NCBI RefSeq assembly: GCF_913055165.1
Contig: NZ_CAJXJS010000020.1
Location: 1-63,036, forward strand
Length of the DNA: 63,036 bases
Direction: 5' to 3'
DNA from: an uncultured Devosia sp.
GTDB taxonomy: Bacteria; Pseudomonadota; Alphaproteobacteria; Rhizobiales; Devosiaceae
Part shown: positions 45,371 through 55,533 of the stretch, one piece after another
Layout of the letters: the number at the start of each line of letters is the position of its first letter
How positions within the stretch are numbered: position 1 is the first letter of the stretch
Program-made: the position numbers and the translations under genes
The notes under the pieces: generated by a model
What the model was told of the DNA's origin: nothing
The model's database searches: none
The model's input: the letters and a program-made list of their open reading frames with translations, nothing else

Positions 45371-45486
45371 CCTCTCCCTCTGGGGGAGAGGTCGGCGCGC
45401 AGCGCCGGGTGAGGGGGCCTTCGGCTTGCTCCGCAACTGTCGGAAGGCCCTCACACCCCAACCCTCTCCCCCCAGGGAGAGGGGGT
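45371..45486. repeat. Palindromic repeat inserted between ATPase and permease genes of the polyamine operon
   Basis: The element starts CACCTCTCCCTCTGGGGGAG and ends CTCTCCCCCCAGGGAGAG. Internal GTGAGGGGGCC and GGCCCTCAC arms also pair, so the 116 bp can fold as a long hairpin. It belongs with the CCCTCCCC-type elements at 48459, 54764 and 55288. It interrupts an operon that is otherwise closely packed. Confidence 0.8.
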
Positions 45487-48458: not shown

Positions 48459-48561
48459 CCCCCACCCTTGATCCCTCCCCACAAGGGGGAGGGAGACGAT
48501 GAACACCGGCGACTGAACCCTGCGCATCCCTCCCCTCGATGGGGAGGGAATGAGGGTGGGG
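48459..48561. repeat. Palindromic CCCTCCCC-type repeat between purU and the Rrf2 gene
   Basis: The 103-bp element opens CCCCCACCCTTGATCCCTCC and closes GGGAGGGAATGAGGGTGGGG; its ends are complementary, and inside is a shorter hairpin CCCTCCCCACAAGGGGGAGG. The same boundaries (CCCCACCCT...AGGGTGGGG) frame the elements at 54764-54935 and 55288-55533. It lies between convergent genes. Confidence 0.85.
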
Positions 48562-54763: not shown

Positions 54764-54935
54764 ACCCCAACCCTCATTCCCTCCCCACAAGGGGGAGGGA
54801 GGCGCCGCGGCGCCCACGCGACCCAATCTCGACCATCAACCCTGAGGACATAATGTTCATCGTCTCCCTCCCCCTTGTGGGGAGGGCAAGCAAAGCTTGG
54901 GTCCGTCAGGACCCTCGCGGCGCTAGGGTGGGGGT
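54764..54935. repeat. Palindromic repeat flanking the DUF559 gene on its 3' side
   Basis: The element opens CCCCAACCCTCATTCCCTCC, contains CCCCACAAGGGGGAGGGAGG followed by GCGCCGCGGCGCC, then the complementary arm CTCCCTCCCCCTTGTGGGG, and closes CTAGGGTGGGGGTT. The left half is identical over more than 40 bp to that of the element at 55288-55533, in the same orientation. It ends at the stop codon of the DUF559 gene. Confidence 0.88.
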
Positions 54936-55287
54936 TTACGGATGCAGCCGCGACCTCTCCGCCAATTCGCGCAGGAGATAGTCCATGACACCCGCAAGAT
55001 TGGACATCACGTCCGAATTGAGCACCCTCACAACGCGGTACCCATCGGCGCGTATCCTCTTGGTCCGCAAGGCGTCCCGCAATTCAGCGCCTCCACCGAA
55101 ATGGGTTTCACCGTCCACCTCGATGACAAGTTTGGCCCGGTGGCTGGCGAAGTCGACAAAATAGGGGCCAATAGGCACCTGCCGCCTGAAATGGTGTCCT
55201 TGCGCGCAATTGTCGCAGAGCGGCCCAGAGCCTGGCTTCCGGCGCACTCATGGTCTTTCGCAATTGCCGTGCGCGCTCGACGCCCAT
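54936..55287 (-). pseudogene. DUF559 (Vsr-like, PD-(D/E)XK) endonuclease gene with a frameshift
   Basis: The N-terminal part starts at ATG 55287 (MGVERARQLRKTMSAPEARL, then WAALRQLRA) in one frame. The rest (AQGHHFRRQVPIGPYFVDFA, then KLVIEVDGETH, ending ERSRLHP) is in another. Joining the frames at about 55200-55210 restores a normal DUF559 protein of about 117 residues. The junction is TTGCGCGCAAGG; one more GC would keep the frame, so a 2-bp loss in a GC repeat is the simplest explanation. The nuclease core D...ExD is present. DUF559 proteins resemble very-short-patch repair nucleases; their role is not established. The gene exactly fills the space between two copies of one palindromic repeat. 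A sequencing error is possible. Confidence 0.82.
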
Positions 55288-55533
55288 ACCCCCCACCCTC
55301 ATTCCCTCCCCACAAGGGGGAGGGAGGCGCCGCGGCGCCGTCACAAACCAAGTTCGATCATCAAGCTCATGGATGCAATGCTCATCCTCTCCCTCCCCCT
55401 TGTGGGCTTCGACCCGTCCCAAAGGGCAAGTCTCTCCGGTGGAGAGACTTGAGGCGAGAAGGCCATGAGCGCTACGCGCGAATGGCGGAGCGCAGCTGCG
55501 CCGACTAGGCGCTAGCGAAGCTAGGGTGGGGGT
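55288..55533. repeat. Palindromic repeat flanking the DUF559 gene on its 5' side, with a nested repeat
   Basis: It opens ACCCCCCACCCTCATTCCCT and shares CCCCACAAGGGGGAGGGAGG and GCGCCGCGGCGCC with the other copy. It closes GCTAGGGTGGGGGT. A copy of the dispersed AAGGCCATGAG...GAATGGCGGAGC repeat lies inside it (55459-55491), which explains its extra length (246 versus 172 bp). On the minus strand its edge supplies GGTGGGGGG, the likely ribosome site of the DUF559 gene. Confidence 0.88.

Follow-up and report, generated by a model that had tools for sequence, protein, structure and literature searches.

A broken DUF559 gene between palindromic repeats in an uncultured Devosia, and the hairpins that flank DUF559 genes in other bacteria

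The DUF559 locus and its repeats

The DNA analysed here, referred to throughout as the window, is a stretch of 63,036 nucleotides from an uncultured Devosia sp. (contig NZ_CAJXJS010000020.1). It carries a gene of the DUF559 family, which Pfam lists as being of function unknown, set between two composite palindromic elements, and two further elements lie apart from it:

54936-55287, minus strand: DUF559 gene, broken (PF04480 match, E 4.8e-21; frames read)
54764-54935, plus strand: composite palindromic element flanking the gene on its 3' side (sequence, repeat comparison, hairpin scan)
55288-55533, plus strand: composite palindromic element flanking the gene on its 5' side (sequence, repeat comparison, hairpin scan)
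55407-55510 (approximate limits), strand not assigned: insert of another repeat family nested in the 5'-side element (similar stretches at 82-88% elsewhere)
48459-48561, plus strand: solo composite element of the same flavour, without a nuclease (core matches; hairpins 48471-48495 and 48526-48550)
45371-45486, strand not assigned: hairpin pair of another flavour (CCTCTCCC..GGGAGAGG), without a nuclease (comparison with the intact paralogue locus L001)

The start codon (55285-55287) and the stop codon (TAA, 54936-54938, minus strand) touch the elements at 55288 and 54935, as the preliminary description had placed them. The exact bracketing of the gene by repeats that it reported is thus borne out, with the correction that the reading frame is broken, the catalytic part being open in 54936-55247 and the N-terminal part lying in a different frame. 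Because of this break, any present activity would need another DUF559 copy. A profile search with the window protein returned PF04480, together with PF18741 below the cut-off, and nothing else; a match to Vsr (PF03852) was absent at E 0.001. DUF559 is the sole enzyme gene of the unit, in which no known transposase was found.

The composite element runs from a pyrimidine-rich tag through a hairpin whose 5' arm is pyrimidine (CCCTCCCC..GGGGAGGG), then through a loop and a second hairpin, to a purine-rich tag. In the 3'-side element, the pyrimidine tag is followed by a hairpin at 54777-54801, the loop, a hairpin at 54865-54887 and a purine tag that abuts the stop codon. In the 5'-side element, a tag adjoins the start codon, followed by a hairpin at 55302-55326, a second hairpin split by the nested insert, and a purine tag at 55501-55533. 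Judging by its sequence, the purine tag immediately ahead of the start codon resembles a ribosome site. The two elements are direct copies of one another (124 nt at 82% plus a 33-nt block at 76%) and have 45 consecutive identical bases in common, in line with the earlier count of more than 40 between elements of the same orientation. The nested insert contains a small hairpin of its own (55430-55448) and resembles, at 82-88%, stretches at L003, L028, L033/L034, L035 and L086. Several palindromic elements of the window genome, and of a second genome of the sample (G011), contain within a loop or an arm a nested repeat of this kind, about 60-100 nt long and unrelated in appearance.

The two elements apart from the gene had been described as relatives that lack a nuclease. 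This holds for 48459-48561, a solo copy of the same flavour; the pair at 45371-45486 is of a different flavour, the one found beside the DUF559 gene L001, and its tags face inward. Allowing at most 3 mismatches, the window contains 5 occurrences of the core CCCTCCCCACAAGGGGGAGGG and 100 shuffles contain none, by which chance palindromes are ruled out as the source of this strict core. Across the whole genome, with both strands counted, the core has 55 matches, which include double counts at a few palindromic places, and the reversed pattern has 0. A loose hairpin definition was not significant in the window (10 observed, 8.15 expected from a Markov shuffle). Because the loose hairpin alone is not rare, the case rests on position beside DUF559, copy number and matching flanks.

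A PF04480 search of the genome located five DUF559 places, the window copy and four more. All five adjoin GC-rich hairpins, several as inverted pairs, when the flanks are read. The repeat flavour varies between the five genes, and those of the four others are unlike the window's.

Hairpins at DUF559 loci and at control genes

The same definition of a pyrimidine-arm-first hairpin, lying within 300 nt of the gene, was applied to all sets of loci. Such a hairpin was present at 204 of 205 usable DUF559 loci, on both sides at 142 and on one side only at 62, the loci being partly non-independent since many are orthologues. At the sole locus without a scored hairpin (L003), a less regular one can be seen by eye. 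Among cold-shock (CSD), HNH and Vsr genes pooled, 13/89 had a hairpin within this distance and 0/89 had hairpins on both sides; the repeats are therefore not equally common beside other genes, and these controls rule out that they go with gene ends or with small nucleases in general. Mirror-image hairpins were found at DUF559 loci on any side in 43/205 cases and on both sides in 7/205, against 142/205 for the pyrimidine-first form, which rules out mere GC-rich structure. The HNH and CSD controls were drawn from the genus/order sample and the Vsr controls from the phylum sample, and for loci from named genomes a positional control within their own DNA was used. Loci dropped at contig ends came to 2 of 75 among relatives, 5 of 80 in the named-genome scan and 1 of 30 for Vsr.

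The sample of relatives comprised 41 genomes with 80 DUF559 places, 75 of which were examined (one of the other five appeared in L307). Hairpins within 300 nt accompanied 72 of the 73 usable loci and stood on both sides of 60, so that the association foreseen for DUF559 genes of related genomes was found. They cluster close to the gene: at 0-150 nt, 132 of 148 sides have one, as against 4 of 147 at 300-450 nt. When 300 nt upstream and 300 nt downstream of the domain were compared, with an alignment score of at least 16 taken as a match, matching flanks were seen at 57/73 of the relatives' DUF559 loci, compared with 0/30 CSD and 0/30 HNH genes from the same genome set. Among Vsr genes of the phylum sample, matching flanks (0/29) and two-sided hairpins (0/29) were likewise not found, which ties the association to DUF559 rather than to a Vsr-like fold in general.

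The pattern extends well beyond the genus. Matching flanks were present at 20/29 loci of the class sample and 15/28 of the phylum sample, in each case among the new loci with the best scores. All 15 loci of these samples that lie outside the Alphaproteobacteria had a hairpin, and 8 had hairpins on both sides. In a scan of named genomes, for which 80 loci were kept of at least 575 confirmed DUF559 places, 75/75 usable loci had a hairpin, 47 had hairpins on both sides, and 52/75 had matching flanks. According to the genome titles, these loci represent Proteobacteria, Chlorobi, Bacteroidetes, Omnitrophota, Desulfobacteria-like groups, Chloroflexi, Clostridia, Mollicutes, Gracilibacteria, Gastranaerophilales, Actinomycetes, Spirochaetes and Cyanobacteria, among others, so that hairpin-flanked DUF559 genes extend beyond the host genus to roughly twelve phyla.

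The direct orientation first described for the repeats is correct for the window locus and is not general: in the 57 relatives' loci with matching flanks, the best match was inverted in 37, direct in 19 and tied in 1, and at one locus (L004) the inverted match runs to 36 identical nt. On the 5' side, the 14 nt of gene-side sequence next to the hairpin have a purine fraction of 0.67, versus 0.49 for the outward-facing stretch (n=176); at the 3' hairpin, the corresponding pyrimidine fraction is 0.66, versus 0.41 (n=177). These purine-rich 5' and pyrimidine-rich 3' inner stretches indicate that the tag faces the gene on both sides, a feature common to the loci. At 62% of 177 loci, the gene runs at least as far as the beginning of the 3' hairpin before its stop codon, so the C-terminal tail is often encoded by the repeat. 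In the printed flanks, the tags are of the GGGTGAGGGGG kind, G/C-rich by eye (unscored), and not GTAG or CGTC.

At some loci (L040, L045, L048, L050, L051, L069, L070, L072, L207, L216), hairpins stand upstream only, and there the DUF559 gene runs closely into a small downstream gene that looks by eye like a VOC or GFA type. Some one-sided loci recur in the same neighbourhoods with the upstream repeat alone, which suggests settled genes; the upstream-only genes are possibly settled copies that are no longer mobile.

Copy number, co-variation and presence of the unit

Copies of the pattern CTCTCCCN{3,9}GGGAGAG were counted in 299 phylum genomes scored for DUF559, a full match being defined by our own cut-off of E <=1e-20, which 85 genomes besides that of the window reached. 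Genomes with full DUF559 had a median of 16 copies, and 65/85 had at least 5; those without a match had a median of 0, and 10/183 had at least 5, as did 5/30 with weak matches only. Fewer than 5 copies were found in 20/85 genomes with full DUF559, 4 of which had none. Outside the Alphaproteobacteria, 22/28 genomes with DUF559 and 7/127 without it had at least 5 copies. In the 13 families where both states are represented, shuffling of labels family by family gave p <=5e-5, with 11 families in the expected direction, 1 equal and 1 opposite; host phylogeny alone as the cause is countered by this test, in which kinship was handled by within-family shuffling rather than by full phylogeny or phylogenetic regression. 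A second pattern, in 143 class genomes, gave 23/37 with DUF559 and 3/92 without it, and 2/13 with weak matches. Some genomes without a DUF559 match are rich in repeats (G228, 57 copies; G365, 34; G324, 29; G223, 22), and one with 139 copies has only a weak match (G394), its congener G376 having both gene and repeats. One flavour reaches up to 509 copies in a single genome. Where printed, the copies read as intergenic (uncounted).

Kinship between nucleases goes with kinship between their repeats at sites that are not orthologous. Across 1949 pairs from 66 same-genus loci, 196 orthologous or overlapping pairs having been removed, nuclease identity and repeat similarity were correlated with rho 0.49, the largest value in 500 permutations being 0.12. 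Similar flanks were seen in 2% of 1186 pairs at 35-45% nuclease identity and in 72% of 32 pairs at 65-75%. This bears on the proposal that the hairpins are simply expression signals, that is, terminators and a ribosome site of a small, readily transferred gene. The start-adjacent purine tag is indeed ribosome-site-like, and flanking hairpins would insulate the gene, but expression signals predict neither the matching flanks, nor many genomic copies, nor co-variation of nuclease and repeat, and this explanation is very improbable.

Duplicated units end at the repeats. In G001, two loci (L100/L102) have a common block of about 480 nt, 71% identical, that ends on hairpins; in G011, another two (L055/L086) have one of about 490 nt, 81% identical, extending from within the 5' repeat to just past the 3' hairpin. 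The dN/dS ratio was 0.12-0.20 in six DUF559 pairs, including that of G011, two more pairs being saturated. Many DUF559 copies are therefore under purifying selection, and some, like the window's, decay. Within one genus, the number of copies varies from 0 to 9 per genome.

Two further explanations are weighed by these results. DUF559 might serve the host by repairing or processing hairpins and limiting palindrome damage, so that palindrome-rich genomes retain it. Such housekeeping also predicts co-occurrence and purifying selection, and the mismatch-repair role proposed for VsrA, a DUF559 protein of Caulobacter (PMC12907096), would suit it. Yet a gene with a policing function has no need to lie between copies of its target or to be duplicated with them, nor is there reason for it to range from none to nine copies within a genus, and we regard this role as improbable. 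Alternatively, another agent, a RAYT-like transposase or slippage, might spread the repeats while DUF559 survives among them as a passenger in a safe haven, maintained through repeat-repeat recombination. Recombination between repeats would also be expected to leave repeat-bounded duplicates and one-repeat remnants, and the ten repeat-bearing genomes without a DUF559 match fit this account; against it stand the scarcity of repeats where DUF559 is missing, also within families, the tracking of repeat type by nuclease type, and the fact that HNH and Vsr genes were not found in such repeats. A passenger role is unlikely, if somewhat less so than housekeeping.

Two positions in the genus are occupied by the unit in some genomes and free of it in others. 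The window unit lies between genes for an aldo/keto reductase and an EamA transporter, and DUF559 adjoins EamA in 2 of 30 EamA loci, the window and G002, where the copy is also broken and the repeats are partly different from the window's. In the closest sisters, G005 (EamA 95%) and G011 (92%), a short intergenic stretch has neither gene nor repeat. In G013, G487, G016 and G499, the repeats are present at the EamA site and the DUF559 gene is absent. Because the broken gene is common to G002 and the window genome and closer sisters are without it, absence at the window site may reflect loss. The aldo/keto reductase-EamA spacer also holds an extra small gene, GFA-type-like by eye, in L306 (G009), L324 (G499), L329 and L330, and the site is thus variable in more ways than one.

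The second site is upstream of a gene that resembles one for a dihydropyrimidinase. DUF559 is present there in 16/30 genus loci, with differing flavours (units at this gene were noted at L001, L039, L042, L062-L066, L215 and L362-L391). The window genome and G501 carry DUF559 within 519 nt, and G011, G009 and G478 have 81-83 nt that are repeat-free. Sister species without the unit therefore exist for both sites. Because the sisters are too diverged, loss and gain of the unit look alike at both; no target-site duplication was read at either, the sister intergenic regions being too diverged for junctions. In G002, G008 and G020, two same-strand DUF559 genes stand about 1.8 kb apart, as if bracketing a gene.

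In E. coli K-12 MG1655, the DUF559 gene is ycjD, which lies between sapF and fabI (L394, 1178-1531). The 3' side of ycjD has palindromes of this kind, together with a repeated fragment of the gene's end. The E. coli control genome gave no match in the PF04480 search, although K-12 carries ycjD. A 1.5-kb query of the ycjD site was at least 80% covered in 3333 of 5426 E. coli genomes. Three strains without ycjD (L395-L397) have efflux transporter genes at the site, adjoining sapF; because these genes replace ycjD, there is no clean empty-site junction in these three strains. In two E. coli strains, ycjD is annotated without its C-terminus.

Nuclease fold, proposed mechanism and known systems

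The structure predicted by AlphaFold for the intact paralogue L001 (mean pLDDT 85.5) was compared with known structures by Foldseek, which returned a putative endonuclease-like protein (3hrl, E 6e-9) and the catalytic domain of the homing endonuclease I-Bth0305I (3r3p, E 8e-5), along with a weak fold match to Vsr (1vsr, E 0.056). A sequence profile search gave 3hrl at E 3.8e-39 and 3r3p at E 0.0013. Residues E54, D56, H60 and D69 are invariant in 26 DUF559 sequences and presumably correspond to the EDxHD motif. The predicted fold of DUF559 is that of a PD-(D/E)XK-like nuclease, and by sequence and modelled fold the family is related to homing endonucleases.

Several published observations concern DUF559 and I-Bth0305I. 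A DUF559 gene has been placed in the EDxHD homing family (PMC9403480), and I-Bth0305I dimerises on a target of nearly 60 bp (PMC3943268). VsrA of Caulobacter holds a DUF559 domain, and in Caulobacter without cytosine methylase the DNA-damage response depends on VsrA (PMC12907096). Segments with a transposase and DUF559 were mutation and recombination hotspots in evolved lines (PMC12308824). The VsrA and hotspot reports are compatible with a homing nuclease, and neither concerns the repeats described here. The available parts of the open-access literature contained no link of DUF559 to palindromic repeats, nor any of ycjD to repeats.

The locus in the window is best explained, with a probability of roughly 0.6, as a broken repeat-nuclease unit whose intact relatives encode predicted homing-type nucleases that likely cut their own repeats and would be copied by repair. 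Beyond the bracketing and co-variation, which were observed directly, we infer DNA cutting, the repeat as its target and spread by recombinational repair. The nuclease would cut the hairpin or the tag of its own repeat family, repair of the break from a copy would spread repeats and gene together, and solo repeats would be either targets of the nuclease or its non-autonomous offspring. The nuclease-repeat unit proposed in the preliminary description is thus supported by the bracketing of relatives' loci, the controls and the unit-free sisters; the association that it recognised stands, the part of mover or maintainer is still a putative one, as it was there, and the cross-phylum reach, the homing kinship and the commoner inverted, gene-facing arrangement are what it missed. 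For the wider proposition that DUF559 and pyrimidine-first palindromes form a bacteria-wide minimal selfish element, in which a nuclease of about 110 residues with the EDxHD motif cuts its own hairpins and is copied by repair, the odds appear about even.

Short intergenic palindromes are frequent across bacterial genomes, and those without a RAYT are in part without a proposed mover. If DUF559 and the repeats belong together, one hypothesis would cover both, and each flavour would gain a candidate enzyme. DUF559 would then be the missing engine of many common palindromes that have no known transposase, and palindrome-borne nucleases would take their place among the selfish nucleases by which genomes are shaped via the repair of breaks.

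Several known systems invite comparison. RIME and CIR of the Alphaproteobacteria are intergenic composite palindromes with many copies, to which the DUF559 repeats are likened by description alone, not by sequence. CIR repeats are named in PMC10969869. Vsr is distantly similar to DUF559 in fold, but differs in that its genes are without matching flanks or two-sided hairpins. Insertion sequences and MITEs resemble the unit in being short, with matching and often inverted ends, gene-free solo copies and presence or absence between sisters; unlike insertion sequences, however, the DUF559 unit is without a DDE or HUH transposase, and its ends are hairpins common to the solo repeats. The EDxHD homing endonucleases, represented by I-Bth0305I, are related in sequence and fold and have the conserved E, D, H and D, whereas the DUF559 gene is free-standing between genome-wide palindromes and not housed in an intron or intein.

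The likeness to REP elements and their RAYT proteins (REP-associated tyrosine transposases), also known as REPtrons and REPINs, was drawn from the outset and is apt in logic. In both cases, short, multi-copy palindromes, often composite, flank a dedicated-looking enzyme gene, and RAYT is the proposed mover of its repeats, while CGTC repeats are described as being without one (PMC3733652). The enzyme family and the tags differ: the DUF559 unit encodes a nuclease rather than a Y1 (HUH) transposase, and its tags are G/C-rich, in contrast to the GTAG or CGTC of REP. Because of these differences in enzyme and tag, the unit is not classed as a member of the REP/RAYT group but is set beside it as a palindrome-flanked unit with an enzyme of another family.
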